DNA from: an uncultured Maribacter sp. | GTDB taxonomy: Bacteria; Bacteroidota; Bacteroidia; Flavobacteriales; Flavobacteriaceae | Reading direction: 5' to 3' | DNA length: 64,000 nucleotides | NCBI RefSeq assembly: GCF_947496775.1 | Contig: NZ_CANMDU010000001.1 | Location: forward strand, 682,001-746,000 | Part shown: in pieces, positions 13,873-48,590 of the stretch | Position numbering within the stretch: position 1 is the first letter of the stretch | Layout of the letters: the number at the start of each line of letters is the position of its first letter | Made by a program: the position numbers and the translations under genes | Notes under the pieces: model-generated | Told to the model about the DNA's origin: nothing | What the model saw: the letters and a program-made list of their open reading frames with translations, nothing else | Databases searched by the model: none

Positions 13873-15060
13873 ATGATTCTCCTAATAAAAAGAGTTGCCT
13901 TATTTTTAAGTATTGCTGCTCTAAGTTGTAATTCCGAAATAAAACCTTCTAAGAAAAAAACTTTTGAGGAAGATTTAGCTTTTATTAATACGTACGCAAC
14001 TCCTATAGTGCTAACCAAGGGCAATGCCAAAATAATGGTTATCCCTGAATATGAAGCCAGAGTATTAACTAGCACAACTAATGGAGATAAAGGATATAGC
14101 AATGGATACCTGAATTATAAAAAAATACAGGAAAACAAAATTGAACAAGGAGGAAATGCTTATGGAGGGGAAGACCGTTTATGGCTAGCCCCTTTAGGAA
14201 GTAAATACACACTATTTTATGGTCAAAAAAAAATGGAAGAGGAAAACTGGTATGTCCCTAAGGCTTTTGACTCGGAACTTTATACCCTTAAAACTAAAAC
14301 AAAATCCAGTGTACATTTTTATAAAAAAACAACGGTAACAAACAATATAGGAAGTCAATTTAAAATTAATATTGACAGAAGTATTTTTATTTACTCCAAA
14401 AAAGAAATAGAATCCGAATTAAATTTAAAAATACACAAAGACCTTCATTATGTAGGTTTTGGTTCGATAAATAAAATCACAAATATTGGAGAAAACTGGA
14501 GCGAAAAAAATGGAATTATTACACCGTGGATTCTGGGGATGTTTAACGGATGTCAAGAATCTACAAGTATTTTTCCGTACAAAGAATCTAACACTACTCC
14601 TTTACAACTTTCCACATATTTAAACCCACTTAATAAAGACAGATTAATTAAGAAAAAGTACGCTCTATTATATAGAACAGACGGCGCTTATCGAAGTAAA
14701 ATTGGCATTAAACCGGAAAATACCATTCCTATAATTGGCAATTATAATTCAAAAAGTAAAATTTTAACCGTTATCACTTTTTCTTTTAATAAAGATGGAA
14801 AATTTTTAAGTTCGGATGACCGAGATAAAAAAAATGAATTATGGAGAGGAGATGTTGTGAATTCATATAATAACGGTCTAAATACAGAAGGAGCACCTTC
14901 TTTTTTTGAATTAGAAAGCGCATCAGAAGCTAAGATTCTTAAAAAAAACGAATCTATAGTTCACCGCCATAAGACCTTTCATTTTTCAGGAGATGAAAAA
15001 GCGTTAAATAATCTTTGTATAAAACTATTTCATTACAATCTAAAAGAATGCTCATTTTAA
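13873..15060 (+). CDS. DUF6786-like lipoprotein of unknown function
   Basis: The 395-residue protein begins with a lipoprotein signal (SIAALSCNSE), so it should be in the periplasm or an outer leaflet. It resembles what I recall as DUF6786: an N-terminal IVLTKGNAKIMVIPEYEARV, then GGEDRLWLAPLGSK (about 98-111), then a galactose-mutarotase-like beta-sandwich pattern. That fold is common among proteins that bind or epimerise sugars, but no catalytic residues can be assigned. The gene starts 1 bp after the sulfatase, and its last 4 bp overlap the end of the convergent AraC gene. Its operon position makes a role in handling sulfated oligosaccharides likely. Confidence 0.6.
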   Translation: MILLIKRVALFLSIAALSCNSEIKPSKKKTFEEDLAFINTYATPIVLTKGNAKIMVIPEYEARVLTSTTNGDKGYSNGYLNYKKIQENKIEQGGNAYGGEDRLWLAPLGSKYTLFYGQKKMEEENWYVPKAFDSELYTLKTKTKSSVHFYKKTTVTNNIGSQFKINIDRSIFIYSKKEIESELNLKIHKDLHYVGFGSINKITNIGENWSEKNGIITPWILGMFNGCQESTSIFPYKESNTTPLQLSTYLNPLNKDRLIKKKYALLYRTDGAYRSKIGIKPENTIPIIGNYNSKSKILTVITFSFNKDGKFLSSDDRDKKNELWRGDVVNSYNNGLNTEGAPSFFELESASEAKILKKNESIVHRHKTFHFSGDEKALNNLCIKLFHYNLKECSF

Positions 15061-15917
15061 TTCATTCCCAATTGTTCATTTCTAAATTCCGTTGGAGTCC
15101 TATTTACATTTTTTTTAAAAATTCTTGAAAAATACGCGGCATTTTCAAATCCCACTTTTTGTCCAATTTCTCGTAAAGAATAATTGGTTGTTAATAAAAG
15201 TAATTGAGCTCTTTCTAATCGTTTTAACTCTATATACTTACTCGGTCGCATATTAAACTTCTCCATAAATCTTTTAGAAAAGTAATCCTTGCTTAAATTA
15301 GAGAAAGTAGCAAGACTTTTTACCGTAAGTTCTTTATGCAGATTTTTAGATATATAAATCACCACATTATTCATACCTTTTTCATTAACTAATAATTTAT
15401 CCCCTAAAATAAATTTAGAAAACAAAATTTTAAGAAGCCCCTGAGTTTCTACGTAAAAATTTGAAATTAATGCCTCGTTTTTTTCATTATAGTATAACAA
15501 AGAAGACTCATTATCGTACGTCTCGGGATTATTATTTATTAATGTTCTATCCGGATTAATCTCTAACAACCGTCTAAAACAATAGCTATCTAACTTCGTT
15601 GTCTTAACGGCATACCTAAAGTTCATTAAATTGTAAATAGATAAACCAATACCTACTTCTTCTAAAAAACTAATATAATATTGCTCGTGTTTTAAGTTAC
15701 AAGTATACCTACTATACGTATTACTGGGTATTAAATACATAAACCCAGGTTTTAAGGTAAATTTTTGATTATTATGGTACACGTAAGCACTTCCAGAGGT
15801 AATTAAATACATTCTTGCAAATGGGCTAATAACATTATCGTAATCCCAATCCGTATCTAATTTTGCGTGGCCTATATTTAACAAGCTAAATTTTAACGAT
15901 TTTAAATATTCCTGCAT
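15057..15917 (-). CDS. AraC family transcriptional regulator (tandem paralogue 1)
   Basis: The 286-residue protein has an N-terminal cupin-like domain (ISPFARMYLITSGSAYVYH, then KPGFMYLIPSNTYSRY) and a C-terminal AraC HTH (about 185-280) with SLREIGQKVGFENAAYFSRIF. It is a close paralogue of the next gene upstream (15941-16813): the same framework of motifs aligns end to end without gaps of note. The two lie on the same strand 23 bp apart, so they arose by tandem duplication and are probably co-transcribed. Its end overlaps the convergent DUF6786-like gene by 4 bp. Likely targets are the four-gene cytochrome operon at 16963, which diverges from this pair, or the sulfatase operon. Confidence 0.88.
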   Translation of the reverse strand: MQEYLKSLKFSLLNIGHAKLDTDWDYDNVISPFARMYLITSGSAYVYHNNQKFTLKPGFMYLIPSNTYSRYTCNLKHEQYYISFLEEVGIGLSIYNLMNFRYAVKTTKLDSYCFRRLLEINPDRTLINNNPETYDNESSLLYYNEKNEALISNFYVETQGLLKILFSKFILGDKLLVNEKGMNNVVIYISKNLHKELTVKSLATFSNLSKDYFSKRFMEKFNMRPSKYIELKRLERAQLLLLTTNYSLREIGQKVGFENAAYFSRIFKKNVNRTPTEFRNEQLGMN

Positions 15918-15940: not shown

Positions 15941-16813
15941 TTATTTACTTAACTGTTGCTTTCTAAAGTTAGCAGGAGTGTTACCCGTTATTTTTTTAAA
16001 AGTTCTAGAAAAATAAGACATATTACCAAGACCAACTTTTTCAGATATTTCCTTTAAAGAATCTTGCGTCGTTAGTAATAGAAACTGGGCTCTTTCTACC
16101 CTTCGTAATTGAATATAACTATTAGGTCTAACTCCAAATTTTTCCTTAAATATTCTTGAAAAATAATCTACATTAAGATTACAATATTTTGCCAATTCTG
16201 TAATACTAATTTTTTCTTGCAAATTATCCGCAATATAAGACAGTACTTTTTCTATAGAAACAGAGCCGGTATCTTCGGATAAAACCAAAGAACCGTGCTC
16301 CATAAACTTAGAAAAAAGAATTGTTAAAATACCCGTAGTTTCTAAAAGTAAATCCGCAGATAATTGGTTATTCTCTATATTAAAGCCCAGCATGGTAGCT
16401 TCATTGTGAATATAAGCATCTGGATCGCTATTTAAAACTTCCCTATTAGGATTAATTACCAATAAGCGTTTAAACAATTCTATATCTGCCTCCGAAGCCT
16501 TAATTTCATATTTAAAACGTTTTAAATTATAAACAGATAAACCATGTTGCACTTCTTCAAAAAAGCCAACATAGTACTGTTCATGATAGTTGTCGCATTT
16601 ATATCTATTATAAACATAACTTGGTATAAGATATATATAACCTGGTTTCAAATAAAATTTTATGTTCGAATGATAAACATCCGCAGTCCCTTTTGTCACA
16701 TAAAACATTCTAGTAAAAGGGCTAATAACCCGATCATAATCCCACTTATTATCCAATTTAGCATAGCCAGCATGTAATAAATTCAGCTTAAGTGTTTGTA
16801 ATAATTCAATCAT
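15941..16813 (-). CDS. AraC family transcriptional regulator (tandem paralogue 2)
   Basis: The 290-residue AraC regulator has a sugar-sensing cupin-like N-terminus (VISPFTRMFYVTKGTADVYH, KPGYIYLIPSYVYNRYK) and a C-terminal double HTH (about 190-288) with SLKEISEKVGLGNMSYFSRTF. It is the first gene of the two-gene AraC unit and diverges from the cytochrome/PSD1 gene at 16963, with about 149 bp between the two chosen starts. That places it well to control the 16963-24321 operon. The residues that differ from its paralogue are concentrated in the sensor half, as expected if the copies respond to different ligands (inferred). Confidence 0.88.
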   Translation of the reverse strand: MIELLQTLKLNLLHAGYAKLDNKWDYDRVISPFTRMFYVTKGTADVYHSNIKFYLKPGYIYLIPSYVYNRYKCDNYHEQYYVGFFEEVQHGLSVYNLKRFKYEIKASEADIELFKRLLVINPNREVLNSDPDAYIHNEATMLGFNIENNQLSADLLLETTGILTILFSKFMEHGSLVLSEDTGSVSIEKVLSYIADNLQEKISITELAKYCNLNVDYFSRIFKEKFGVRPNSYIQLRRVERAQFLLLTTQDSLKEISEKVGLGNMSYFSRTFKKITGNTPANFRKQQLSK

Positions 16814-16962
16814 AAAAACCTTATTTTGAATACTTATAAACTATAATATAGCTTCAAAAATAACCATCTAAGTCGGAAATGTACATAATTAAGACTGATT
16901 TAAGCATGAATTATCATTTATTTAAAAATAATTTTGCTTTAATGTATGATAAATGTCATTTT

Positions 16963-19900
16963 ATGGTAAATTTTAAAAGAGTCTTTTTTATAATCGCTGT
17001 AATTTTCGCATCGTGTGGTGGGCCCGAATTACCAGAATCTGTAGCTATTGCTTATGATTCTCTGCCTAAAGAAGTAGATTTTAATCAACATGTAAAACCT
17101 ATATTATCTGATAAATGCTATTTATGCCATGGGCCAGATAAAGCAAATATAAAAGCAGGTTTACAATTACATTCTGCCGAAACTGCATATAAAGAGCTGC
17201 CAGAATCTCCTGGAAAATTTGCTATTACCCCTGGAAATTTAAACAAAAGTGAATTTTTTCATCGGATAATGACTGATGATCCTAAAATAATCATGCCCGA
17301 GCCTGGGTCCCATTTAACCCTTACAGATTATGAAAAAGCAGTATTAGTTAAATGGATTGAAGATGGGGCGGAATACAAAGATCACTGGGCCTTTTTAAAA
17401 CCAAAAAAACATTCAGCTCCCATTGTTAAGGAAGACCAACACACAAACAATCCAATAGACAATTTTGTAGTAGCGCAACTAGAACAAAAGAATTTATCTC
17501 CTTCTAAAAAAGCAAATAAAGAAATTTTACTACGTCGTGCTTCTTTCGACTTAACAGGTTTACCTCCAACAATTGAGGAAATAGATGCCTTTTTAAAAGA
17601 CAACTCTCCTAATGCTTTTGAAAAACAAATAGACCGTCTTTTAGCCTCTCCCCATTATGGAGAACAAATGACATTAGATTGGATGGATGTTTCCCGCTAT
17701 GCAGATACACATGGGTATAGTAATGATAGGTACCGAGATACTTCTCCTTGGAGAGATTGGGTAATTAAAGCTTTTAATGAAAACATGTCTTACGACCAAT
17801 TTATTACTTGGCAATTGGCTGGCGACATGTTTAAAAACCCAACCAAAGAACAAAAATTAGCAACTACATTCAATAGACTACATCCGCAAAATTTAGAAGG
17901 CGGAATTATCGACGAAGAATTTAGGTCTGAATACGTGGCAGACAGGACTGCTACTGTTAGCCAAGGAATGTTAGGTTTATCTTATGCCTGTGCTAAATGC
18001 CATGATCATAAATACGACCCTATCTCTCAAAAAAATTATTACGAAATGTATAGTTTTTTTAATAACGTGGATGAGACTGGTTTAATTCCTTGGGATCTAG
18101 CTACTCCCGTACCCGCAATGTTATTACCTACAGAGGAACAGGAAAAAGTTGTTGCTTATTTAGAGAAAATCGTAGAGGATACGGAAGAAAGGTTAAACAC
18201 AACAACCAAGAGTGAAAGTAAGAAGGCACACCAATGGTTAGCAAATAACGCTCACCAAAAAATCGCTCTAAAAACAAAGCCAAAAGGCCTAATAGCTGCA
18301 TTTAATTTTGACAACGAAAAACTTGTTAACGCCGTTGGAGGGAATGGAAAAAACAATATTAGAATGCGTCAGGAATTTGTCGATAATGAGAAAGCTATAT
18401 ACAAAAAGGGAGCTAACGGAAAAGGTCTTTTCATGAATGGCGATACTTGGTTAGAATTAGATAAAATAGGAATTTACAAGCGTAACGAACCATTTAGTAT
18501 TTCTATAAAAGTTTTTATTCCGGAGGACTTAGAAGAAGGTGTTATTTTTCATAAAATGAATAGCCCAGAGTTACATAGTTTTAGAGGATACCACTTAAAA
18601 ATAAAAAACAACAAATTAGAAGCTTTATTGGCCCATGTGTACCCCGATAATGCAATTGTAGTACAATCTTTAAATGAAATCCCTAAAGAAAAATGGGTAC
18701 AAGTAACCATGACTTATAATGGTTCTAGTAAAGCAAAAGGCGTTTCCATATACGTAGATGACGAAAAACAAGAAACTAAAACAGTTTTTGATAATTTATA
18801 TAAAGACATCATTTTTAATGGTCTTAGATTATATGGTCCTTCCAGTCCTCGTCTTGAACCAGGTTTACGAATAGGAGCCGTTTGGCGTGGCAAAGGGATT
18901 GGGAATTCTATCGTAGATGACTTGTTAGTATTCGATAAAGAAATAAGCGCTATTGAAGTAATGCAAATAAGTGATTCAGAAACACTTAAGAAAATTATTT
19001 CCACGCCTTTTAACACTTTAACAAAAAAAGAAAAACAACTTTTAACTGAATACTATTTAAGTAACAACTCTTCCTCCTATAAAACAGTACTGAAAGAATT
19101 AGAGGCTAAAAGAAAAGTGCTAGTAGACAGTATTGAGCCCATAAAGCAAATTATGGTTATGAAGGAGGCTAAAACCCCTAGACAAGCTTATATTTTAGAT
19201 AGAGGAAATTACGATTCTCCTACTGATTCTGTATTCTCTAATGTACCTGAAAAAATATTTCCAATGCCTGACGGAGCTCCAAAAAACAGACTCGGCCTTG
19301 CTAAATGGATAACACACAAAGACAACCCACTAACGGCAAGAGTTACGGTAAATAGGTATTGGCAAAATTTATTTGGCCGAGGATTAGTAAAAACATCAGA
19401 AGATTTTGGCAACCAAGGAGAGTTACCTAGCCATCCCAAACTATTAGATTGGTTAGCTGTAACCTTTATAGAATCTGGATGGGATGTAAAGGCTCTACAT
19501 AAAACAATAATGATGTCTAACACATACCAGCAAAGTTCTATAATTAGTGAAGAACTATTAGCCGTAGATGCTGAAAACAAATGGTTAGCAAGAGGGCCTT
19601 CTAACAGATTAACTGGAGAAATGCTAAGAGATAATGCTTTGTTTGCATCTGGTTTATTAAACAAAGAAATCGGAGGGGAAAGTGTAAAACCATACCAACC
19701 AGAAGGTTTATGGAAAGTAAATGGAGACACTTATGTACAAGACGGAGAAGAAGGTTTGTATAGGAGAAGCATATACACTATTTGGAAACGTACGGTACCT
19801 AATCCTACTATTTCTATTTTTGATACTCCCACACGAGATTTATGCTCTAGTCGTAGACAAAAAACCAACACTCCTTTACAAGCCTTAGTTATTTTAAATG

Positions 19901-20211
19901 ACCCAACGTATATAGAGGCTTCTAGGGTACTGGGAAAACAAATTTCAGAAGCCGATAATTTAAAAAATGGTATCACTAGTGCTTTTAAAAAACTAACTGG
20001 TAGAAGTATTTCTGATCAAGAATTAAAAGTCTTAACAGAATTACAAAAGAAGGAATACGAAAAATTCAACAGTAATAAAGAGAAAGCCATAGGCTGGTTA
20101 CAAACAGGAGCTTTTAAGTTATCTAAAACGGACAATAAAGCATTAATAGCGGCAAATGCTGTAGTAGCAAGTACAATCATGAATGCAGATGCTAGCATCA
20201 CTAAAAGATAA
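16963..20211 (+). CDS. PSD1/planctomycete-type cytochrome C domain protein (PSCyt1-PSCyt2-LamG-PSD1), lipoprotein
   Basis: From the ATG at 16963 (MVNFKRVFFIIAVIFASCGG) the product is 1082 residues with a lipoprotein signal; starts further upstream (16879) would bury that signal. Domains in order are: PSCyt1 with haem motif C52-YL-C55-H56; PSCyt2 (DUF1549) with LLRRASFDLTGLPPTIEEID, and a second haem motif C343-AK-C346-H347; a LamG-like beta-sandwich (about 420-640); and PSD1 (DUF1553) with NPLTARVTVNRYWQNLFGRG. Two covalent haems are therefore expected, in the periplasm. The family is best known from Planctomycetes, where it has many copies and no settled function. It heads a four-gene unit (gaps 27, 21 and 21 bp) with a DUF1501 partner, a pairing typical of the family. 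Confidence 0.85.
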   Translation: MVNFKRVFFIIAVIFASCGGPELPESVAIAYDSLPKEVDFNQHVKPILSDKCYLCHGPDKANIKAGLQLHSAETAYKELPESPGKFAITPGNLNKSEFFHRIMTDDPKIIMPEPGSHLTLTDYEKAVLVKWIEDGAEYKDHWAFLKPKKHSAPIVKEDQHTNNPIDNFVVAQLEQKNLSPSKKANKEILLRRASFDLTGLPPTIEEIDAFLKDNSPNAFEKQIDRLLASPHYGEQMTLDWMDVSRYADTHGYSNDRYRDTSPWRDWVIKAFNENMSYDQFITWQLAGDMFKNPTKEQKLATTFNRLHPQNLEGGIIDEEFRSEYVADRTATVSQGMLGLSYACAKCHDHKYDPISQKNYYEMYSFFNNVDETGLIPWDLATPVPAMLLPTEEQEKVVAYLEKIVEDTEERLNTTTKSESKKAHQWLANNAHQKIALKTKPKGLIAAFNFDNEKLVNAVGGNGKNNIRMRQEFVDNEKAIYKKGANGKGLFMNGDTWLELDKIGIYKRNEPFSISIKVFIPEDLEEGVIFHKMNSPELHSFRGYHLKIKNNKLEALLAHVYPDNAIVVQSLNEIPKEKWVQVTMTYNGSSKAKGVSIYVDDEKQETKTVFDNLYKDIIFNGLRLYGPSSPRLEPGLRIGAVWRGKGIGNSIVDDLLVFDKEISAIEVMQISDSETLKKIISTPFNTLTKKEKQLLTEYYLSNNSSSYKTVLKELEAKRKVLVDSIEPIKQIMVMKEAKTPRQAYILDRGNYDSPTDSVFSNVPEKIFPMPDGAPKNRLGLAKWITHKDNPLTARVTVNRYWQNLFGRGLVKTSEDFGNQGELPSHPKLLDWLAVTFIESGWDVKALHKTIMMSNTYQQSSIISEELLAVDAENKWLARGPSNRLTGEMLRDNALFASGLLNKEIGGESVKPYQPEGLWKVNGDTYVQDGEEGLYRRSIYTIWKRTVPNPTISIFDTPTRDLCSSRRQKTNTPLQALVILNDPTYIEASRVLGKQISEADNLKNGITSAFKKLTGRSISDQELKVLTELQKKEYEKFNSNKEKAIGWLQTGAFKLSKTDNKALIAANAVVASTIMNADASITKR

Positions 20212-20238
20212 ATTGTAATCTTCTAAATTCAAAAAATT

Positions 20239-21756
20239 ATGTGTAACGATCATCACCATAAAAAGTTAACATCTAACAATAGAGATTTACAAAATATTGA
20301 AAAACAACTCGATAGAAGGCATTTTTTAAAAAAGACATCTTTAGGCTTAGGAGCAATCGCTTTAAGTAGTCTATTAGGCTCTGAAAAATTACTTGCCAAT
20401 ATAGGACAGGAAAGTGCCCAAAAAGAAATATTAAAAAACTATAACAAAAATAGGTTAGGCTTACCTCATCACCTACCTAAAGCAAAAAGAATTATATATC
20501 TGTTCCAAAGTGGAGGACCATCCCAACTCGATTTGTTTGACTATAAACCTAAACTAACAGATATGTTTGGCAAAGAATTACCCGAATCTATTATTGGCGG
20601 TCAAAGACTTACAGGGATGAGTGGTAGCCAAAGCACCTTACCTGTTGCCCCTTCTTCTTTTACCTTTAAGCAATACGGAGAATCTAGAGCATGGGTTAGT
20701 GATGCCATGCCATATTTATCTGAAGTCGTAGATGATTTGTGTTTTGTAAAAGGAATGCAAACTGACCAAATAAACCATACACCTGCAATTACCTTTATGC
20801 AAACAGGGAACCAATTACCAGGAAGACCGTCTATAGGTTCTTGGTTAAGTTATGGCTTAGGTTCTGATAATGAAAACTTACCAACCTTTATTACTTTGGT
20901 TTCTAAAAACGGGAAAGGACAACCTTTAAAGGCAAGTTTGTGGGGTAATGGTTTTTTACCAACAGAACATCAAGGCGTACAATTTAGATCCGGTAAAGAC
21001 CCTGTTTTATATTTAAGTGATCCTGAAAATTATGATGGCCAAGACAGAAGGCATATGCTAGATTATTTAAGTCATTTAAATGATTTACAAAAAGATGCAT
21101 ATGGCGACCCAGAGATTCAGGCTCGTATGCGTCAGTATGAAATGGCCTTTAAAATGCAAACGTCAGTTCCCGAGGTTACCGATTTATCAGATGAACCGGA
21201 ACATATTTTTGAAATGTATGGAAAAGATAGTAAAGACCCTGGAACATATGCTGCCAATTGCTTAATGGCAAGAAAACTTCTAGAAAAAGGTGTAAAATTT
21301 GTGCAACTATATCACCAAGGTTGGGACCAACATAATTATTGTCCCGGAGGTGTAAAAAATCAATCTCAAAAAACGGATCAAGGAACCGCTGCTTTAATTA
21401 AAGATTTAAAACAGCGCGGCATGCTAGACGATACGTTAGTTATTTGGGGAGGAGAGTTTGGTCGTACAGTATATTCTCAAGGACAATTAACTAAGGCAAA
21501 CTATGGTAGAGACCACCACCCGAAAGCATTTACTATGTGGATGGCAGGAGCTGGTGTTAAACCAGGTTTTTCTTATGGCGAAACAGATGATTTTAGTTAT
21601 AATGTTGTAAAAGACCCTGTTCATGTACATGATTTTCATGCTACTTTATTACATTTAACAGGTATTGACCATGAACGCCTTACGTTTAAACACCAAGGAA
21701 GACGCTATAGACTAACCGATGTTCATGGTAACGTTGTAAAAGATTTATTAACCTAA
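20239..21756 (+). CDS. DUF1501 family protein, Tat-exported
   Basis: The 505-residue protein carries a twin-arginine signal (DRRHFLKKTSLGLGAIALSS, about residues 25-45) after an unusual His-rich N-terminus (MCNDHHHKK). The body is DUF1501, a member of the alkaline phosphatase superfamily fold that also includes sulfatases: IIYLFQSGGPSQLDLFDYKP at the start of the fold, FVQLYHQGWDQHNYCPGG, LVIWGGEFGRT, and a C-terminal DFHATLLHLTGIDHERL. Tat export means it folds, possibly with metal, before crossing the inner membrane. It lies directly after the haem protein (27 bp), its usual genomic partner. Function is unknown; a hydrolase of sulfate or phosphate esters is suggested only by fold. Confidence 0.85.
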   Translation: MCNDHHHKKLTSNNRDLQNIEKQLDRRHFLKKTSLGLGAIALSSLLGSEKLLANIGQESAQKEILKNYNKNRLGLPHHLPKAKRIIYLFQSGGPSQLDLFDYKPKLTDMFGKELPESIIGGQRLTGMSGSQSTLPVAPSSFTFKQYGESRAWVSDAMPYLSEVVDDLCFVKGMQTDQINHTPAITFMQTGNQLPGRPSIGSWLSYGLGSDNENLPTFITLVSKNGKGQPLKASLWGNGFLPTEHQGVQFRSGKDPVLYLSDPENYDGQDRRHMLDYLSHLNDLQKDAYGDPEIQARMRQYEMAFKMQTSVPEVTDLSDEPEHIFEMYGKDSKDPGTYAANCLMARKLLEKGVKFVQLYHQGWDQHNYCPGGVKNQSQKTDQGTAALIKDLKQRGMLDDTLVIWGGEFGRTVYSQGQLTKANYGRDHHPKAFTMWMAGAGVKPGFSYGETDDFSYNVVKDPVHVHDFHATLLHLTGIDHERLTFKHQGRRYRLTDVHGNVVKDLLT

Positions 21757-21777
21757 GTATTAAACTAGATTAGAACT

Positions 21778-22908
21778 ATGTCTACAAGAAGAAATTTTAT
21801 TAAAAAAACAAGTTTAGCAAGTGCAGCTTTAGCCACATCTTCTTCAGCTTTTGGAGCCACCATTATTACAAAAAAAGATAGTGTAAACCATTTGCTAAAT
21901 GAAACAAATACTATTCTTGGGCATGGTGATTATAAATATAAACTAACCAAAAATTGGGCACAAATAAGCTCCACAAGAATTCCATTGCTTAATTGCCATG
22001 AAATGGTGATGGATAGTAAAGGACGCTTAATCATGATTGGAGACCATCCACAAAATAATATCTTGATTTTTGATAAATCTGGTAAGCTATTAGACTATTG
22101 GGGAACTGCCTACCAAGGTGGGCACGGGTTAACAATTCATGATGAAGGAGGAGAAGATATGCTGTATATCGCAGATTCTGGCTGGGCATTAGGAAAAAAT
22201 AACAAAATGGTGAAGCACAACGGTCGTATTGCTAAAACTACGGTTGACGGAAAAGTTATTTTTGATATTGGCCACCCACAAACCATTGGAGTGTACAAAC
22301 CAGGAGAAGATTTTTGCCCAACCGAAACCGCTATTGGACCCAATGGAGATATTTATGTGGCCGACGGTTATGGGCAAAGCAGAATAATACAATACGATTT
22401 AAATGGGAGGTATATTCGTCATTGGGGAGGTAGCGATAATCCAGACCCAAATTATAGATTAATGAGTGCGCATGGTGTAGCAATAGATTATAGAGAAAAA
22501 GGTAACCCAATGGTAGTTTGCACATCACGTTCGGAGCAATGTTTCAAATATTTCACTTTAGATGGCAAGTATATTAAGACAATAAAAATGCCCAACATGC
22601 AAGTATGTAGAGCGGTGTTTGATGATAAAAACTTATATGCCGGAGTTTGTTGGTCGCAACCAAAAGTTGGAAAAACAAATTGGAGGGATCATACCGGTTT
22701 TGTAACCATTTTAGAAGGAGATAAAGTTGTATCTAATCCTGGAGGCACAGAACCTATTTATAAAGACGGAGAGCTTCAAAAGTCTTTTCAAATAGACGAA
22801 AAACCCATATTACATGGTCATGATGTATGCATTGATGAAGACAAAAATATATATGTATGTCAGTGGAATGCTAGTCATTCTGCTCCATACAAATTAGAGC
22901 GCGTTTAG
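21778..22908 (+). CDS. NHL/6-bladed beta-propeller protein, Tat-exported
   Basis: The 376-residue protein has a Tat signal at its very N-terminus (STRRNFIKKTSLASAALATS). The rest reads as an NHL-type beta-propeller: CHEMVMDSKGRLIMIGDHP, DMLYIADSGWALG, IGPNGDIYVADGYGQSRIIQ and VCIDEDKNIYVCQWN mark successive blades. Such propellers act as lyases (the peptidylglycine lyase type), lactonases or binding modules; the scattered His, Asp and Glu at blade starts would allow a metal site, but none can be assigned. Its place between DUF1501 and the membrane cytochrome gene, 21 bp from each, implies a role in the same periplasmic process. Confidence 0.75.
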   Translation: MSTRRNFIKKTSLASAALATSSSAFGATIITKKDSVNHLLNETNTILGHGDYKYKLTKNWAQISSTRIPLLNCHEMVMDSKGRLIMIGDHPQNNILIFDKSGKLLDYWGTAYQGGHGLTIHDEGGEDMLYIADSGWALGKNNKMVKHNGRIAKTTVDGKVIFDIGHPQTIGVYKPGEDFCPTETAIGPNGDIYVADGYGQSRIIQYDLNGRYIRHWGGSDNPDPNYRLMSAHGVAIDYREKGNPMVVCTSRSEQCFKYFTLDGKYIKTIKMPNMQVCRAVFDDKNLYAGVCWSQPKVGKTNWRDHTGFVTILEGDKVVSNPGGTEPIYKDGELQKSFQIDEKPILHGHDVCIDEDKNIYVCQWNASHSAPYKLERV

Positions 22909-22929
22909 AAATTATTTACAGTTTATTTT

Positions 22930-24321
22930 ATGAATCAAGCACCAGATTTTGTTTTATTTCTAGGAAGGTTTCACCCATTAGTGGTTCACTTACCTATTGG
23001 CTTTCTATTTTTCGCTTTCCTTCTGGAGTTATTTAGCAAATGGAAGAAAAATAATGCTCTACTAGCCGGCATACCATTGGCTCTTTTAATGGGCACAATT
23101 ACTGCTGCAATATCCTGTATTTTAGGTTATATGCTATCCCTAAGTGGAGATTATGAAGAAAGCGCTGTGGATAGTCACTTCTGGTTTGGAATAGCGACTA
23201 CAATTGTAGCTAGTATAGCTTGGCTTATAAGAATCGATAAAATTAAACTTCCAAAAGCAAAAAGCTTTAGAGCTAACATTGCTACTCTTACACTGCTAGT
23301 AATATTACTAAGCGTTACTGGTCATTACGGTGGAAATTTAACACACGGAAGTGATTATCTTATTAAATACCTACCTTTTGGAAAATCAGAAAAAAAAGAA
23401 CTTGTTCCTGTTTCTAAAGTAGAAGATGCCGTTGTTTACGATTATCTAGTAGAACCCATTCTAGAAAATAAGTGTACCAGTTGCCACAACTCTAGCAAGA
23501 AAAAAGGTGGATTATCCTTAACAGATAGCATATCTATTGTCAAAGGAGGAAAAAATGGGGATGCTTTAATACCTGGCAATTCAGTAAAATCAGAGATGAT
23601 TAAAAGAGTACTTCTTGACCCTCACAATGAGGACTTTATGCCTCCAGAAGGCAAAACACCATTAACAGAAGAGGAAATAGCAATTTTAATCTATTGGATA
23701 GATAATGCTAATGCAGATTATTCATCTAAAATATCTTCCGTAGAAACACCTGAAAACATTTCTCACTTAGCATCTAATTTTCTAGGATTACCCATCGAAG
23801 GTCAAAAAGGGACAGTCCAATTACCAGAAGTAGGTGCCATTAAAGAAGAGGTAATCAACTTTATCCTCTCAGAAGGTTTTACAATAAGAGAATTAGTGTT
23901 CGAATCTAATTTATTTGAGGTTGTTCTTCCGTCTAAAACATTAAAAAACAATACTCCAGAAGAAATAAATAAGAAGCTAGCAGCTCTGGCCAAAATAAAA
24001 GATAATATTCTGTGGTTTTATGCTGAAGATAACGGAATAACAGACACTCATTTAAATACTATATCTGAATTTAAAAACTTGCAAAAGCTAAATTTAAACA
24101 ACAACGATATCACGGACCAAGGTATTACTTCTTTAGAAAAACTTACTAGTTTAAACAGTCTTAATATTTATGGCACCAAAGTTTCCAAAAATTCTTTAAA
24201 TTCTTTCTTAAAAATGCAAAATTTAGAAAAAGTTTATGCGTGGAAGACGGCCATAAAAACAGAAGATTTAGCAATGTACATGGGTAAAGAAAATGTTCCG
24301 CATGTTAGTTTAGGTAATTAA
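22930..24321 (+). CDS. Membrane protein with DUF2231 region, PSCyt1 haem domain and leucine-rich repeats
   Basis: This 463-residue protein has three parts. Residues 1-155 form about four membrane helices starting FHPLVVHLPIGFLFF, the DUF2231 pattern. Residues about 170-255 are a planctomycete-type cytochrome domain with haem motif C182-TS-C185-H186 and the family ending DFMPPEGKTPLTEEEIAIL. The C-terminus (about 370-450) contains leucine-rich repeats (LQKLNLNNNDITDQGI, LNSLNIYGTKVS). It would tether haem to the inner membrane facing the periplasm, a plausible electron link between the lipoprotein cytochrome at 16963 and the respiratory chain (inferred). Last gene of the four-gene unit; a weak hairpin (24365-24385) follows. 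Confidence 0.82.
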   Translation: MNQAPDFVLFLGRFHPLVVHLPIGFLFFAFLLELFSKWKKNNALLAGIPLALLMGTITAAISCILGYMLSLSGDYEESAVDSHFWFGIATTIVASIAWLIRIDKIKLPKAKSFRANIATLTLLVILLSVTGHYGGNLTHGSDYLIKYLPFGKSEKKELVPVSKVEDAVVYDYLVEPILENKCTSCHNSSKKKGGLSLTDSISIVKGGKNGDALIPGNSVKSEMIKRVLLDPHNEDFMPPEGKTPLTEEEIAILIYWIDNANADYSSKISSVETPENISHLASNFLGLPIEGQKGTVQLPEVGAIKEEVINFILSEGFTIRELVFESNLFEVVLPSKTLKNNTPEEINKKLAALAKIKDNILWFYAEDNGITDTHLNTISEFKNLQKLNLNNNDITDQGITSLEKLTSLNSLNIYGTKVSKNSLNSFLKMQNLEKVYAWKTAIKTEDLAMYMGKENVPHVSLGN

Positions 24322-24482: not shown

Positions 24483-26168
24483 ATGTTAGTTCTTTGTAAA
24501 AGACTGCTTGTATTAGCTATTTACGCCCTTCTTTTAGTATTATTTTCTTGTTCAGAAAGAGAAGAAAAAATTACCAAAAAACCAAATATCATTTACATAA
24601 TGGCAGATGACCATACCACACAAGGTTTTGGCATTTACGGAAGTCGTTTAGCTAATTTAAACCCTACTCCTACTTTAGACAAAATTGCTAATGAAGGTAT
24701 TATTTTTGAAAATTGTTATGTAAACAACGCTATATGTGTACCTAGTAGAGCTGCGATTCTTTCTGGCCAACGCGCTCAAACCAATGGCGTTTTAGATTTA
24801 GAAGGTATTCTCCCAATAGCAAAACAATATTTACCACAAGAAATGAAAAAGCTTGGTTACCAAACCGCTATTGTTGGTAAATGGCATTTACATGAAGAAC
24901 CTGCTTCTTTTGACTACTATCAAGTATTACCTGTACAAGGCAAATACTTTAATCCAGAATTTAGAATTCAAGGAGACAAACCATGGCCAAATAATGTTAT
25001 TAAAACAGAAGGACATTCTTCTGATATGGTTACAGACATAAGTTTAGATTGGCTAAAAAACAAAAGAGACCCTAACAAACCTTTCTTCTTAATGCATCAT
25101 TTTAAAGCGCCGCATGATGATTTTGAATATGCTCCAAGATATGAAGATTACTTAGCAGATACTTTTATTCCAGAACCAGAAAGTTTGTATGATAATAAAA
25201 ACAATGGCTCTATTGCTACAAGAGGAAAAAACGATTCTTTAACACGTATTATTGGATCTTCTGTTTCCCATAGAAATTTAATACGTAACCAAGCTCATAA
25301 TATTTATTGGAATGATACTACTTTACATAGAAAGTACGGAAACGCAAGAGATATAAAGCCAGAACAGCATGTAAAATTTGAGCTCACCCCTGATGAAAAA
25401 ACATATACTAGCAAAGTATACCAAGATTATCTTAAAAAATATCTTCGTTGTGTAAAAGGTGTAGATGATAATGTAAAAAGATTAATAGATTACCTAGAAA
25501 AAGAAAACCTTTTAGAGGAAACAATTATTGTTTATACTGGTGATCAAGGGTTTATGCTTGGTGAACATGATTATATTGATAAAAGATGGATGTATGATGA
25601 AGCCATGCGCATGCCATTCTTTGTTCGTTACCCAAAAACCATTGCTAGTGGAACAAGAACTGATGCTATTATAAATAATACAGACTTTGCCCCTACAATG
25701 ATAGAACTAGCTGGCGGTAAGACTCCAGATTATATGCAAGGAAAAAGCTTTAAATCTATTTTAGAAACAGGAAAAGAACCTGCAGATTGGCAAAAATCTA
25801 CATACTACAGGTATTGGATGCACTTAGCTCACAGACATCAAAACCCTGCGCATTTTGGTGTAAGAACTAAAGATTATAAACTTATTTTCTTTTATGGAAA
25901 ATATTGGGTAGATACAGACAATCCAGATGCAGAATACAACAAAAAAAGTTGGGGTAATGATTATGCAAATCATACTCCTGCTGCATGGGAATTTTATGAT
26001 TTAAAGAAAGATCCTAAAGAAATGAATAATGCATATAACGATCCTGCCAATAAAGAAATCATTGCAGAATTAAAAAAAGAACTACTAAAGCTACGTAAGG
26101 ATTTAAATGAAACAGATGCTAACTACCCTCACATACAAAAAGTCATAGATGCGCATTGGAATGATTAA
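24483..26168 (+). CDS. S1 family sulfatase (lipoprotein)
   Basis: The 561-residue protein begins with a lipoprotein signal (LLLVLFSCSER). Sulfatase features are YIMADDHTTQGFGIYG (metal site), the formylglycine motif CVPSRAAILSGQ with Cys85, AIVGKWHLHEEP, MHHFKAPHDDFEYAP and YTGDQGFMLGEHDYIDKRWMYDE, a choline- or iduronate-sulfatase-like arrangement. A 50-residue insertion near 225-275 sets it apart from the other sulfatases here. It is followed by the GH2 gene after 22 bp, so desulfation and galactoside cleavage are probably coupled. The 161-bp gap upstream suggests its own promoter, though none is clear. Confidence 0.92.
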   Translation: MLVLCKRLLVLAIYALLLVLFSCSEREEKITKKPNIIYIMADDHTTQGFGIYGSRLANLNPTPTLDKIANEGIIFENCYVNNAICVPSRAAILSGQRAQTNGVLDLEGILPIAKQYLPQEMKKLGYQTAIVGKWHLHEEPASFDYYQVLPVQGKYFNPEFRIQGDKPWPNNVIKTEGHSSDMVTDISLDWLKNKRDPNKPFFLMHHFKAPHDDFEYAPRYEDYLADTFIPEPESLYDNKNNGSIATRGKNDSLTRIIGSSVSHRNLIRNQAHNIYWNDTTLHRKYGNARDIKPEQHVKFELTPDEKTYTSKVYQDYLKKYLRCVKGVDDNVKRLIDYLEKENLLEETIIVYTGDQGFMLGEHDYIDKRWMYDEAMRMPFFVRYPKTIASGTRTDAIINNTDFAPTMIELAGGKTPDYMQGKSFKSILETGKEPADWQKSTYYRYWMHLAHRHQNPAHFGVRTKDYKLIFFYGKYWVDTDNPDAEYNKKSWGNDYANHTPAAWEFYDLKKDPKEMNNAYNDPANKEIIAELKKELLKLRKDLNETDANYPHIQKVIDAHWND

Positions 26169-26175
26169 GTAATAA

Positions 26176-29433
<3,258 letters not shown>

Positions 29434-29588: not shown

Positions 29589-29930
29589 CTACAACTGAAA
29601 TACCTTTTCCATTTCAATCCATTTTTCGCCTTTTTTTGCCCACGGTAACTCTTGTTGGTAATTCCACATTAGTTGCTCCCATTCTTGCACCTTTGGATTA
29701 TTAGCATCCATCTCTGCTTTTTTATTAGGATCAAAGGTTTCATCAACTTCCATAATCATAAACATACGATTACCTGTTAAGTAAATTTGCATATCTACTA
29801 TACCAGCATCCTTTATACTTTTAGTAATTTCTGGCCAAGCGTTTCCTGCTGCATGGTATTCTTTATACTCTGCAATTAATTTAGGATCGTCTTTTAAATC
29901 ACACGAAAGGCAAAATCTTTTTGTATTCAT
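29589..29930 (-). CDS. L-rhamnose mutarotase family protein (RhaM/DUF718; possibly L-fucose mutarotase)
   Basis: The 113-residue cytoplasmic protein has the family length and core: FCLSCDLKDDPKLIAEYKEYHA with the conserved Tyr-xxx-His, then NAWPEITKSIKDAGI and MFMIMEVDETFD. These enzymes interconvert alpha and beta anomers of L-rhamnose and related sugars. It is the last gene of a unit with an SDR and a FucP-type permease, and a GH29 gene lies just upstream. No rhamnose isomerase or kinase is nearby, so its substrate here is more likely L-fucose or L-galactose. It starts 18 bp after the permease gene, and a terminator follows at 29529-29555. Confidence 0.85.
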   Translation of the reverse strand: MNTKRFCLSCDLKDDPKLIAEYKEYHAAGNAWPEITKSIKDAGIVDMQIYLTGNRMFMIMEVDETFDPNKKAEMDANNPKVQEWEQLMWNYQQELPWAKKGEKWIEMEKVFQL

Positions 29931-29948
29931 ACTATATATTATAAAATA

Positions 29949-31265
29949 TTAAGCTTTATCTTGTTTTGCAGCATATAATCCATATAAGCCTACTACTGCA
30001 ATACATATCATAGGCATTATGAATGAAAATTTAACTTCTGGAACACCTAGAATTAAGGTGTCCGCTAAATTATCGCCTCCTATATCAATAATAGCGCCTT
30101 GCATTAAAGGAAAAATTGCTCCCCCAACAATTGCCATTACCAAAAATGCGGAACCAACTTTAGCCTCATCCCCCATATCTTTTAAAGCAATTCCATATAT
30201 TGTTGGGAACATAATAGACATAAATAAAGAGATACAAACTAAAGAAATTAATCCAGGCATACCAGGTATTGTAATTGCACCTGCACAGCAAACGATTGCT
30301 AAAGCTGCAAATAATGATAGTAATTTTGGCGCTGAAAAAACACTTAATAATGCTGTTCCTAAAAATCTACCTCCTAAGAAAATACCCATTGCAATCATAT
30401 TCATATACGTTGCATTAATATCACTATTAGTAGACTCATTTAAGTATTGTACATACTGAAAAATTGCTGTCCAGCACATAATCTGAGCGCCAACATAAAA
30501 CATTTGTGCCAAAACACCGGGAAAGAAAGTTTTCTTAGCAAATATTTTCTTTACAGATTCCTTAAATGTTAAGCTTGTATGCTCCTGCACAGTTGGTATT
30601 TTGGTAAAGGCTATTAAAATTAAAATAACCAATACAACAACCCCTATTCCTAAATAAGGATAACTTATTATACTTAAATCTTCCGTTTTAATTGCAGCTT
30701 TTTCTGCCACATCTAAAGCTGCGTAGGTTTCATCATTATATGTTGCCGATTTAATTTGACTTAATACAACAAACTGGGCAATCATCATTCCAGAAATAGA
30801 ACCTATAGGGTTAAACGATTGCGCTAAGTTTAATCGTTGCGTTGCTGTCTCTTTTGCTCCTAAGGACAAAATTAAAGGGTTAGATGTAGTTTCTAATAGT
30901 GCTAAGCCACAGGTAATAACGTATAAAGAGATTAAGAAAAATGAGTATTCTTCATAAGCTGCCGCTGGATAAAATAAAAATGCTCCTATTGCATACAATG
31001 ATAATCCTAAAAGAATACCTTTTTTATAAGTATACTTTTTAATAAATAATGCAGCTGGTATTGCCATACAACCATAACCAAAATAAAAAGCAAATTGAAC
31101 TAAATAGGCCTGTGTCCAACTTAATTCTGGCATTACCTTTTTAAATGCTGTAACCATAGGATTAGTAACATCATTTGCAAAACCCCACAAAGCGAAAAGA
31201 GAGGTAATGATTATAAATGGAATTAATAATTCTTTACTTACTATTGGAGTTTTCTTTGTACTCAT
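29949..31265 (-). CDS. fucP: FucP-type L-fucose/sugar:H+ symporter (MFS)
   Basis: The 438-residue inner-membrane transporter has about 12 hydrophobic segments. Family marks are LIPFIIITSLFALWGFANDV in helix 1, LETTSNPLILSLGAKETA, and RLNLAQSFNPIGSISGMM, the Asn/Gln/Phe-Asn-Pro motif of the FucP group. It would bring L-fucose, or a stereochemical relative such as L-galactose, from periplasm to cytoplasm with protons. It sits between SDR and mutarotase genes on the same strand (61 and 18 bp gaps), which fits import, anomer equilibration and oxidation of one sugar. Glucose/galactose permeases of the same group are an alternative. Confidence 0.87.
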   Translation of the reverse strand: MSTKKTPIVSKELLIPFIIITSLFALWGFANDVTNPMVTAFKKVMPELSWTQAYLVQFAFYFGYGCMAIPAALFIKKYTYKKGILLGLSLYAIGAFLFYPAAAYEEYSFFLISLYVITCGLALLETTSNPLILSLGAKETATQRLNLAQSFNPIGSISGMMIAQFVVLSQIKSATYNDETYAALDVAEKAAIKTEDLSIISYPYLGIGVVVLVILILIAFTKIPTVQEHTSLTFKESVKKIFAKKTFFPGVLAQMFYVGAQIMCWTAIFQYVQYLNESTNSDINATYMNMIAMGIFLGGRFLGTALLSVFSAPKLLSLFAALAIVCCAGAITIPGMPGLISLVCISLFMSIMFPTIYGIALKDMGDEAKVGSAFLVMAIVGGAIFPLMQGAIIDIGGDNLADTLILGVPEVKFSFIMPMICIAVVGLYGLYAAKQDKA

Positions 31266-31325: not shown

Positions 31326-32117
31326 TTACTCGGTTAACAAAGACCTATCTAAATGCACATATCCACCATCTACGGTAATAAACTGTCCCGTGGTATGTGA
31401 AGATTTTTCGGATATGGTAAACAAACAAGTATCTGCAATTTCTTGCGGAGTTGTCATTCTGTTTTCTAAAGGAATTTTCTTAACTATAGATTTTAATTTT
31501 TCTTCGCCATTTTCTAAAGTCTTTATCCAACTGTCATAGGCTGGTGTCCAACTTTCCGATATTATAATTGCATTAGACCTAATGCCCTCTTTAATTAAAT
31601 CTACGGCCCATTCTCTTGTTAAACCAAGCACGCCACCTTTAGACGCTGCATAACCAGAAGTTCCTCCTTGCCCGGTTAAACCTACTTTAGACCCTATATT
31701 TAAAATATTCCCTTTTGATTTTTTTAGGAAAGGCAATGCATGCTTCACTACTAAAAAATAACTCACCATATTTAGTTTTAGCGAATTCATGAATTCATCA
31801 TAGGAAGCATCTAAACCCACTCCATCATTTACCCCTACATTATTAATTACTACGTCAATGCGATTATATTTTTCAGTAATAGTAGTTACCGCTCTTTTTA
31901 TCTCATCTGGGTTAGTTACATCTGTCTGACAAAAAATTGCGTCTACTCCTTTTTCTTGAAGTTCTTTAACATATTCAAAACCTCTTGCATTTCTATCTAT
32001 AACAGCAGGGATTGCTCCTTCTTTTGCAAGGTTTTGTAAAATAGTCTCTCCTATACTTCCTTTAGAGCCTGCAGCACCTGTAATAACAACTACTTTGTCT
32101 TTCAGATTTAAATCCAT
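31326..32117 (-). CDS. Short-chain dehydrogenase/reductase, possible L-fucose/L-galactose dehydrogenase
   Basis: The 263-residue cytoplasmic SDR has the dinucleotide-binding segment VVVITGAAGSKGSIGE (about residues 9-24, slightly longer than the standard TGxxxGxG), NNVGVNDG, a catalytic Ser in NIGSKVGLTG, and YAASK containing the catalytic Tyr and Lys. Its operon with a FucP-type permease and a mutarotase suggests that it oxidises the imported sugar at C1, the first step of non-phosphorylative L-fucose catabolism. A KduD-like role in the KduI/KDG pathway is the main alternative. The lactonase and dehydratase that this route needs are not in the window. A strong terminator (32166-32188) separates it from the GH29 gene upstream. 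Confidence 0.8.
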   Translation of the reverse strand: MDLNLKDKVVVITGAAGSKGSIGETILQNLAKEGAIPAVIDRNARGFEYVKELQEKGVDAIFCQTDVTNPDEIKRAVTTITEKYNRIDVVINNVGVNDGVGLDASYDEFMNSLKLNMVSYFLVVKHALPFLKKSKGNILNIGSKVGLTGQGGTSGYAASKGGVLGLTREWAVDLIKEGIRSNAIIISESWTPAYDSWIKTLENGEEKLKSIVKKIPLENRMTTPQEIADTCLFTISEKSSHTTGQFITVDGGYVHLDRSLLTE

Positions 32118-36048: not shown

Positions 36049-36061
36049 TATTTGCTATAAA

Positions 36062-48547: not shown

Positions 48548-48578
48548 AGCAGGGGACAAAAGTTTGTTCCCTGCTTTT
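48548..48578 (+). terminator. Rho-independent terminator/attenuator between susD and the FG-GAP gene
   Basis: AGCAGGGGACAAA (48548-48560) pairs with TTTGTTCCCTGCT (48563-48575), 13 bp with one G-U pair, followed by a short T-run (48575-48578). It ends most transcripts after susD and leaves the next start codon (48591) only 12 nt downstream, so read-through would give low expression of that gene. Confidence 0.8.
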
Positions 48579-48590
48579 AAAGTTAATAGA

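Follow-up and report, generated by a model that had tools for sequence, protein, structure and literature searches.

The stretch of DNA analysed here (64,000 nucleotides of a contig from an uncultured Maribacter sp.; hereafter the window) carries a set of four genes, all on the forward strand, at positions 16963-20211, 20239-21756, 21778-22908 and 22930-24321, separated by 27, 21 and 21 bp, with the longest version of the first open reading frame (ORF) starting at 16879 rather than 16963. Two tandem AraC-type regulator genes lie divergently on the reverse strand (15941-16813, which recurs in the window's branch, and 15057-15917). A previous sequence-only reading had described this arrangement, and the ORF coordinates and Pfam HTH_18 matches bear out its genes, its gaps of 21-27 bp and its two divergent regulators. 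The three haem motifs that it named are likewise in place, CYLCH and CAKCH in the first protein and CTSCH in the fourth, as are two Tat-type signals, DRRHFLKK and TRRNFIKK, read directly in the sequence. CxxCH is expected at 0.001 or fewer in shuffled proteins, an arginine of each twin-Arg start is invariant (R26 in 81/81 DUF1501 rows; R4 in 46/46 propeller rows), and genes for TatC and cytochrome c assembly are present in the same genome. A promoter scan, with flavobacterial promoters outside its coverage, returned about as many sites as in shuffled sequence. Pfam was run on 35 window proteins, leaving out the ORFs at 1826-2731 and 62259-63554 (each at least 150 aa).

The first gene (16963-20211) encodes a 1082-aa lipoprotein, its lipobox read by eye, with PSCyt1, PSCyt2 and PSD1 domains all above the Pfam cut-off and an AF2 model of pLDDT 93.2 and pTM 0.92. 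A motif search places the first haem c motif, CYLCH, at residue 52 in PSCyt1 (17116-17130, forward strand) and the second, CAKCH, at residue 343 in PSCyt2 (17989-18003, forward strand), followed by an invariant H349. The CxxCH residues and Met111 are invariant in 98/98 PSD1 rows from six phyla, invariance of the second motif being partly selected in some rows because their scan patterns include CHDHK[YF]D, a bias that does not touch the flavobacterial rows, which came from a Pfam PSD1 search. From the motifs, this protein and the fourth are predicted to bind haem c. Between PSCyt2 and PSD1 lies a Laminin_G_3-like insert of lectin-type jelly-roll form (18484-18801, forward strand; Pfam 27.1 bits, cut-off 27.6), for which short PSD1 relatives have no room. 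Foldseek matches of the whole model, as far as the 50 of 898 listed, pair this insert with other proteins of jelly-roll form, toxin binding domains being frequent among them, and were set aside; the likeness is that of a common fold without functional meaning, and those 50 hold nothing informative on the haem protein core. Matches of the PSD1 profile in the PDB were confined to the insert and the haem domain.

The second gene (20239-21756) encodes a DUF1501 protein (Pfam, 532 bits) with a Tat-type signal, for which Foldseek returned mostly sulfatases among the matches listed (best E 9.5e-8, TM-scores 0.27-0.41), and whose profile had no match in the PDB at E 0.1. The overall fold is common to S1 sulfatases and the alkaline phosphatase superfamily, with an apparently altered active site: the formylglycine motif CxPSR was not found at the aligned place, where the DUF1501 rows carry His180 in position of the Cys and Pro182 (each 81/81) and Ala183 (75/81); the DD pair of sulfatases is replaced by GGPS after a predicted strand at 84-90 (by eye); and the C-terminal DN-type segment is present with E406 at the Asp place. 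The N-terminal profile alignment behind the His180 assignment, made on the sulfatase side with the 25 of 41 sulfatase-like rows that have the motif, is gapless but, at E 0.78, not significant by itself. H180, D363, H365, E406 and H426 are invariant in 81/81 rows. DUF1501 therefore seems, allowing for this weak local alignment, to be a sulfatase-fold protein apparently lacking the sulfatase catalytic residue.

Such a fold would suit a core pair without redox activity, in which DUF1501 acts as a metal-dependent hydrolase or transferase of the alkaline phosphatase superfamily on a DUF1800-like scaffold, the haems being sensory or extra. Comparison of PSCyt2-PSD1 with DUF1800 profiles gave collinear matches over two stretches, with E-values of 6.1e-4 and 3.6e-3 and hhalign probabilities of only 28% and 9%; they score 39 and 33, where unrelated controls reach at most 20 and the cytochrome partner 30. 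Pfam found DUF1800 in 1 of 10 proteins at E 0.033, below cut-off and on par with chance-looking matches; a resemblance to DUF1800, another DUF1501 partner, is suggestive at this level. The Maribacter genome itself carries a DUF1800-DUF1501 pair whose DUF1800 member has no haem domain, so that the activity shared by the cores may not be redox, and PMC5122149 reports such pairs beside bacterial chitin synthase genes. A non-redox core is nonetheless a doubtful, if serious, possibility, given the haem motifs and Met111 kept across six phyla (with the partial selection mentioned above), the frequent addition in the membrane partner of a third haem, exceeding a sensor's needs, and the apparent exchange of the fold's usual catalytic residue for His.

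The third gene (21778-22908) encodes a propeller (Pfam NHL) with a Tat-type signal, whose profile aligns with the structure of peptidyl-hydroxyglycine amidating lyase (PAL; 3fvz) at E 7.9e-14. Taken over its full length, the sequence scores higher with two TRIM-type NHL propellers than with PAL; among the four alignments printed, the best single stretch is that with PAL, at 47 bits, in which H116, Y198, H232 and R251 match PAL active-site positions, while a second stretch, scoring no more than 5 bits, matches H348 and D349. The positions that match PAL are invariant in 46/46 propeller rows, and two distant PVC copies keep all of them but D349. The three His positions are Zn ligands in PAL, and H116, H232 and H348 are the presumed equivalents here; the catalytic Tyr and Arg of PAL are described in PMC10303134. 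Strong PAL-like genes occur in 70 of 79 PSD1-bearing genomes and 0 of 220 others of the family, with at most six candidates scored per genome and a Fisher value (8e-59) that is too small because related genomes were treated as independent. Since the propeller is PAL-like, a lyase step is suggested.

Propeller lactonases also exist, and the core might instead be a sugar dehydrogenase that oxidises C1 to a lactone for the propeller to hydrolyse in the manner of SMP-30/gluconolactonase, a scheme that neighbouring, presumed cytoplasmic enzyme genes (FDH, amidohydrolase) would fit. The propeller's conserved residues, however, presumably differ from the SMP-30 ligands, its conserved His, Tyr and Arg being those of PAL, and the pathway seems already to be present in the cytoplasm, making this decidedly unlikely. 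A genuine peptide PAL, functionally unrelated to its neighbours, would account for the conserved active-site positions but not for the way the propeller strictly co-occurs with PSD1-DUF1501 and sits in their operon, or for the sugar context, and is highly improbable.

The fourth gene (22930-24321) encodes a DUF2231 membrane domain with four hydrophobic segments and five invariant His, a PSCyt1 haem c domain with the third motif, CTSCH, at residue 182 (23473-23487, forward strand), and a leucine-rich-repeat-like end, its repeats sub-threshold in Pfam. The CxxCH residues and Met237 are invariant in 49/49 rows, so that haem ligands are conserved in both cytochromes, and the membrane protein, previously proposed as a partner, is a frequent one. 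Among 12 loci in the window's branch, 6 have a CCP/MauG-like gene (the assignment Pfam-tested in one locus) immediately behind the membrane cytochrome, an arrangement present in 0 of 147 other loci tallied; the Fisher test was set up as 6/13, window included, against 0/93, and the two values of 4e-6 and 1e-6, this test among them, are too small, related genomes having been taken as independent. This neighbour is consistent with peroxide being made; the window is without one, the two copies in the genome sitting elsewhere.

Across genomes, DUF1501 directly follows PSD1 in 79/80 flavobacterial, 26/29 further Bacteroidota and 38/51 non-Bacteroidota loci, the stretch ending within 2 kb downstream of PSD1 in 13 of the last group. 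Joint conservation of the four genes, on which the sequence-only reading had staked its proposal beforehand, was found as the strict order in 24/80 flavobacterial and 4/29 further Bacteroidota loci and in 0/51 of the others, and all four lie within the next five genes in 31/80 flavobacterial loci. In 13/80 the pair has neither partner within that distance, and a propeller or cytochrome directly follows DUF1501 in only 3/51 non-Bacteroidota loci. The genes thus recur together, as had been claimed, though not as a unit: the recurrent core is PSCyt1-PSCyt2-PSD1 with DUF1501, its partners are optional, and the strict order of all four genes is an elaboration seen in Bacteroidota. Because L031-L110 are a hand selection among the PSD1 places that the Pfam search listed, percentages describe the sample only; pattern-scan loci are the best 80 of 592, one of which (L172) repeats L051 and was left out of the neighbourhood tally, and the row set of 157 kept ORFs longer than 740 aa.

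Downstream of the module lie genes for a sulfatase whose best solved relative is the exo-L-galactose-6-sulfatase 7lha (24483-26168, forward strand; 626 bits) and a GH2 of beta-galactosidase type (26191-29433, forward), followed on the reverse strand by a mutarotase (29589-29930), a FucP-type permease (29949-31265), an L-fucose, possibly L-galactose, dehydrogenase (31326-32117) and a GH29 (32221-33777), and again on the forward strand by an alcohol dehydrogenase (ADH; 34933-36048), closest to the solved 8h2a/8h2b (8h2a, 644 bits), and an esterase (36062-36865), with GH2, mutarotase, permease, fucose dehydrogenase and esterase assigned by Pfam. The top solved match of the GH29 is 7snk (435 bits), labelled alpha-L-fucosidase by its depositors, and the next are exo-alpha-L-galactosidases (428 and 426 bits). 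The sugar-degradation context of the sequence-only reading holds, but fucoidan as substrate, suggested by the permease, dehydrogenase and GH29, was dropped because the GH29 is near exo-alpha-L-galactosidases and the sulfatase near an exo-L-galactose-6-sulfatase; the surroundings look, by sequence similarity, like porphyran/L-galactose use, and the fucose dehydrogenase may have L-galactose as its substrate. This extends only to the branches around the window: markers of porphyran, L-galactose or 6-O-methyl-galactose (G6Me) occur in 10/24 loci of the window's and sister branches (11/25 with the window, counted as marked although its own proteins were the queries) and in 2/81 other Bacteroidota loci, a comparison made without 54 PVC, Acidobacteria and other rows (a few fragmentary Bacteroidota among them) and with a Fisher value (9e-7) too small for related genomes treated as independent. 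Within the window's 13-member branch, the fetched stretches carry porphyran markers in only three members, the window, L038 and L045, the latter two without the membrane cytochrome. No endo-porphyranase of GH16 or GH86 was found among the 35 window proteins (ORFs 1826-2731 and 62259-63554 left out).

The ADH and esterase are of the kind found with G6Me demethylation (PMC10033563), where such ADHs adjoin the G6Me P450 and a knockout grows poorly on G6Me. The module might be a P450-free parallel to the G6Me demethylase, hydroxylating in the periplasm a methyl ether on a methylated galactan sugar, from which the PAL-like lyase would free formaldehyde; the chemistry of PAL, which breaks a C-N bond at a hydroxylated carbon, is not far from the cleavage of a hemiacetal, and in L031, L039 and L075 the module has P450 genes in its neighbourhood. 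Such oxidative O-demethylation is nevertheless unlikely. With the P450, ferredoxin and reductase set that the genome has elsewhere (at C12), the step would exist twice; the ADH has no role in formaldehyde detoxification in PMC10033563, which together with that set weakens the ADH and esterase as a formaldehyde route for the module; and P450 or ADH markers occur in only 5/105 of the Bacteroidota loci compared.

We tentatively favour, at somewhat less than even confidence, a periplasmic redox module that oxidises a galactan-derived sugar, whose product a PAL-type lyase splits. The di-haem lipoprotein and DUF1501, a Tat-exported putative metalloprotein with a rebuilt sulfatase-fold active site, would form a complex that oxidises the substrate; electrons would run along the His/Met-type haems to the DUF2231 membrane protein with its haem c and from there into respiration or, alternatively, in reverse, feeding an oxygen-dependent step. 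The propeller, with a Zn ion, would split the oxidised (hydroxylated, hemiacetal-like) product as PAL splits hydroxyglycine, and in the window's and sister branches the module would serve porphyran-type galactan loci (L-galactose-6-sulfate, 6-O-methyl-galactose). The analysis found no catalytic site for an oxidation, which counts against redox chemistry, and haems of both types might do no more than transfer electrons. Many loci have the core pair but no propeller or membrane cytochrome, so neither partner is essential to the core chemistry. A more specific form, speculative and rather unlikely, is a two-step oxidative cleavage like that of PHM-PAL, in which a metal centre of DUF1501, wired to the haems, hydroxylates or dehydrogenates an O-adjacent sugar carbon and a PAL-type Zn lyase splits the unstable product. 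If true, ethers or glycosides beyond the reach of hydrolases would be opened in the periplasm, and in DUF1501 a sulfatase fold would have been converted into a redox or metal-oxo partner.

The function of PSCyt/PSD1 proteins is stated to be unknown in PMC5615132, although some Planctomycetes carry their genes by the dozen, Rhodopirellula baltica having 41 of each domain (PMC2754498). New here are the PAL likeness, the sulfatase fold of DUF1501 with, apparently, His at the formylglycine place, a suggestive resemblance of PSCyt2-PSD1 to DUF1800 and the porphyran-like surroundings. At the level of residues, the PAL-like partner hints at how one form of the system may work chemically, and the porphyran-like surroundings point to a concrete substrate class; the two together make this long-standing gap testable in culturable marine flavobacteria.

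Among known systems, PSCyt1 has its top solved match (E 1.1e-4) in the haem domain of the hydrazine synthase alpha subunit (5c2v), a likeness of one domain only, the module showing no sign of nitrogen chemistry. Relative to porphyran utilisation loci (7lha, 7ljj, 7lnp, 8h2a/8h2b), genes like those for exo-L-galactose-6-sulfatase, exo-alpha-L-galactosidase and G6Me-ADH adjoin the module. The haem module is an addition to such loci, whose GH16/GH86 enzymes are missing among the 35 window proteins scanned. Gut bacteria whose porphyran enzymes have been solved are not known to rely on a module of this kind, a point against the favoured reading. In PHM-PAL of animals and green algae, as described in PMC6529398 and PMC10303134, the propeller His, Tyr and Arg positions match those of the module and the lyase acts after an extracytoplasmic redox step, as proposed here; the redox partner in the module is instead a haem protein with DUF1501, no PHM domain was found by Pfam among the 35 window proteins, and the context is sugar, not peptide. 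The DUF1800-DUF1501 pair (PMC5122149) likewise joins DUF1501 to a helical partner, although the DUF1800 protein of the Maribacter genome has no PSCyt domain. The PSCyt/PSD genes of Planctomycetes and Verrucomicrobia, as described by He et al. 2017 (PMC5615132), share the haem and PSD domains, usually adjoin an unknown gene and, as here, have sulfatases and carbohydrate-binding domains nearby; the Bacteroidota form adds the PAL-like protein and the DUF2231 cytochrome, and two of its branches are tied to porphyran-type genes.

The four-gene exported set proposed in the sequence-only reading, with its short gaps, three haem motifs and divergent AraC pair, was confirmed by open reading frames, Pfam domains and a motif count against chance. 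A PSCyt1-PSCyt2-PSD1 di-haem lipoprotein (16963-20211, possible ORF start at 16879) is followed by a DUF1501 protein (20239-21756), an NHL propeller (21778-22908) and a DUF2231-PSCyt1-LRR membrane cytochrome (22930-24321), separated by 27, 21 and 21 bp; the three CxxCH motifs far exceed chance expectation, and two AraC-type genes lie upstream on the opposite strand. Haem Cys/His residues and Met111 are invariant in 98/98 rows of the PSD1 protein, some recruited through a scan pattern that included the second haem motif, and haem Cys/His residues and Met237 in 49/49 rows of the membrane cytochrome. In the genome as a whole, PSD1 and DUF2231 are each found in a single gene and DUF1501 in two matches; a single gene resembles peptidyl-hydroxyglycine amidating lyase (PAL), and TatC and cytochrome c assembly genes are present.

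In the literature searched, with few subscription papers and no preprints, no function was found for PSCyt1, PSD1, DUF1549, DUF1553 or DUF1501, and no paper naming DUF1501 and DUF1553 together was found. PMC5615132, in its accessible text, describes PSCyt/PSD genes as of unknown function, with two families of unknown genes as the usual neighbours of PSCyt2 and PSCyt3 genes; 41 copies each of two domains are recorded for Rhodopirellula baltica (PMC2754498, in part), and the accessible portions of PMC8857213 and PMC6653060 give nothing on function.

Of 299 genomes in the family, 79 carry PSD1; the sole other same-genus genome among the 299 does not. DUF1501 directly follows PSD1 in 79/80 loci hand-picked from the PSD1-bearing family genomes; in a second set, the 80 named loci of a broader scan, it does so in Bacteroidota (26/29), Verrucomicrobiota (15/19), Planctomycetota (13/17), Acidobacteriota (9/13), Armatimonadota (1/1) and Hydrogenedentota (0/1), where 13/51 non-Bacteroidota stretches end <2 kb after PSD1. 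The strict order of four occurs in 24/80 family loci, 4/29 further Bacteroidota and 0/51 non-Bacteroidota. Since DUF1501 adjacency is common and the strict order limited, the unit is the PSD1-DUF1501 pair, the propeller and membrane cytochrome being mainly Bacteroidota additions to it; the earlier interpretation is partly supported, in that the genes do recur together but the four do not form the unit.

The window falls within a 13-row branch of the PSD1 tree (FastTree, support 100), in which DUF1501 and the propeller accompany every row (13/13 each) and the membrane cytochrome 11/13, the two loci without it (L038 and L045) being among the closest relatives of the window; the sister branch has DUF1501 in 12/12 rows, the propeller in 5/12 and the membrane cytochrome in 2/12. 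In five of seven loci in a branch of 900-aa PSD1 proteins (L102, L103, L104, L105, L107), DUF1501 and the membrane cytochrome are separated by a gene for a xylose-isomerase-like TIM barrel, in the position that the PAL-like gene takes elsewhere. In six loci of the short-type branch (L092, L097, L098, L099, L108, L110) the propeller and membrane cytochrome have a 261-284-aa gene between them, the L092 copy bearing CHB_HEX_C_1/Fn3_assoc domains.

The membrane partner has four hydrophobic segments, and its H15, H20, H83, H132 and H139 are invariant in 49/49 rows; a periplasmic location of the haem c domain that follows the fourth segment would put all five histidines near the periplasmic face, as expected if they served haem b or some other metal site. 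A CCP/MauG-like gene, whose product is of the di-haem peroxidase type (Pfam match shown for the L034 copy), directly follows the membrane cytochrome in 6/12 window-branch loci (L034, L037, L041, L052, L057, L066) and was not seen in the remaining 147 loci of the tally; the window has no such gene, and the genome's two lie elsewhere.

The predicted DUF1501 structure (pLDDT 84, pTM 0.81) matches sulfatases first, at E 9.5e-8 and weaker, with TM-scores of 0.27-0.41. A C-terminal profile alignment to sulfatases (E 9.6e-6) places E406 at a metal-binding Asp, and a gapless N-terminal alignment pairs His180 with the formylglycine Cys and Pro182 with the motif Pro; at E 0.78 the N-terminal alignment is not significant alone, and it leans on the fold. 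H180, P182, D363, H365, E406 and H426 are invariant in 81/81 rows, and after the first strand DUF1501 reads, by eye, GGPS where sulfatases have DD. The fold of DUF1501 is that of a sulfatase, but the catalytic residue of sulfatases seems to be missing.

With a profile of 46 propeller rows, rat PAL (3fvz) came out at E 7.9e-14. Over the whole sequence it was outscored by two TRIM-type NHL propellers, but the best single stretch among the four alignments printed was that of PAL, at 47 bits. Within that stretch PAL H94, H199, Y163 and R215 align with window H116, H232, Y198 and R251. The pairing of H295 and D296 with H348 and D349 comes from a further stretch of very low score (5 bits). Each of these six window positions is unchanged in 46/46 rows. 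PAL H94, H199 and H295 are presumably Zn ligands 585, 690 and 786 of PAM numbering, the spacings of 105 and 201 agreeing between the two. The PAL Y163-R215 spacing of 52 equals that of the catalytic pair of human PAM, Tyr651/Arg703 (PMC10303134, accessible text). Of the six window positions, those of His, Tyr and Arg persist in two distant PVC copies, but D349 does not. With up to six candidates scored per genome, strong matches (E <=2e-145) were found in 70/299 family genomes, all with PSD1, and nine PSD1-bearing genomes lacked one; the next-best match was at 5e-29, and the 220 genomes without PSD1 gave no strong and five weak partial matches. Being made from PSD1 neighbours, the profile defines a subfamily, which the score gap suggests is discrete.

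Among solved proteins, the nearest to the sulfatase that follows the module is the exo-L-galactose-6-sulfatase 7lha (626 bits); the GH29 is closest to 7snk (labelled alpha-L-fucosidase, 435 bits), followed by the exo-alpha-L-galactosidases 7ljj (428 bits) and 7lnp (426 bits). The window ADH is closest to 8h2a (644 bits) and 8h2b (596 bits), which we take to be the ADHs of PMC10033563. In the accessible part of that paper, such ADHs lie beside a 6-O-methyl-galactose (G6Me) P450, and a knockout grows poorly on this sugar. Another contig of the genome (L232, C12:16000-30000) carries genes of the G6Me demethylase type for a P450, a ferredoxin and its reductase, resembling those of flavobacterial locus L031; an ADH and an esterase like their usual companions are in the window (34933-36865) and absent from the L232 stretch. 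The sulfatase-rich locus also contains DUF4861 (4807-5982) and DUF6786 (13873-15060) proteins, and a large FG-GAP/ASPIC-UnbV repeat protein (48564-52001) immediately follows SusC/SusD. Porphyran/L-galactose/G6Me-type markers accompany 10/24 loci in the window's branch and its sister (11/25 counting the window) and 2/81 other Bacteroidota loci. Other branches have other neighbours, including ThuA (5/13 loci in one), an AP_endonuc_2 protein (5/7 in another) and, by eye, TRAP-type transporter genes, which makes a general chemistry probable, with the porphyran link applying to the window and sister branches.

The reaction, metal, complex and substrate of the module are each matters that we infer. 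Its most likely function, put forward tentatively, would be a periplasmic oxidation, here of a porphyran-derived compound, with which a PAL-type lyase would act together.

A resemblance to a further family emerged on comparing the PSCyt2-PSD1 profile, lectin-like insert omitted, with a 28-row DUF1800 profile: two stretches aligned in the same order with scores of 39 and 33 (E 6.1e-4 and 3.6e-3; hhalign probabilities only 28% and 9%), against <=20 for unrelated controls, 19 for the reversed DUF1800 profile and 30 for the membrane cytochrome, a protein with shared haem-domain sequence. Pfam DUF1800 matched 1/10 PSD1 proteins over an overlapping stretch (E 0.033), no better than some chance-looking matches. 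The second DUF1501 of the genome (L192:1054-2793, C1:934141 region) adjoins a DUF1800 gene, has a Tat-type start and retains GFDTH, SEFGRR and TDHG; its tail has a sub-threshold type IX secretion match (Por_Secre_tail, 19.3 bits, cut-off 27), making Tat-then-T9SS export to the cell surface possible. PSD1 and DUF1800 are likely, short of proof, to be distantly homologous; a DUF1501 ORF lies within the span of 16/30 fetched DUF1800 loci, and DUF1800-DUF1501 gene pairs are described in the accessible text of PMC5122149.
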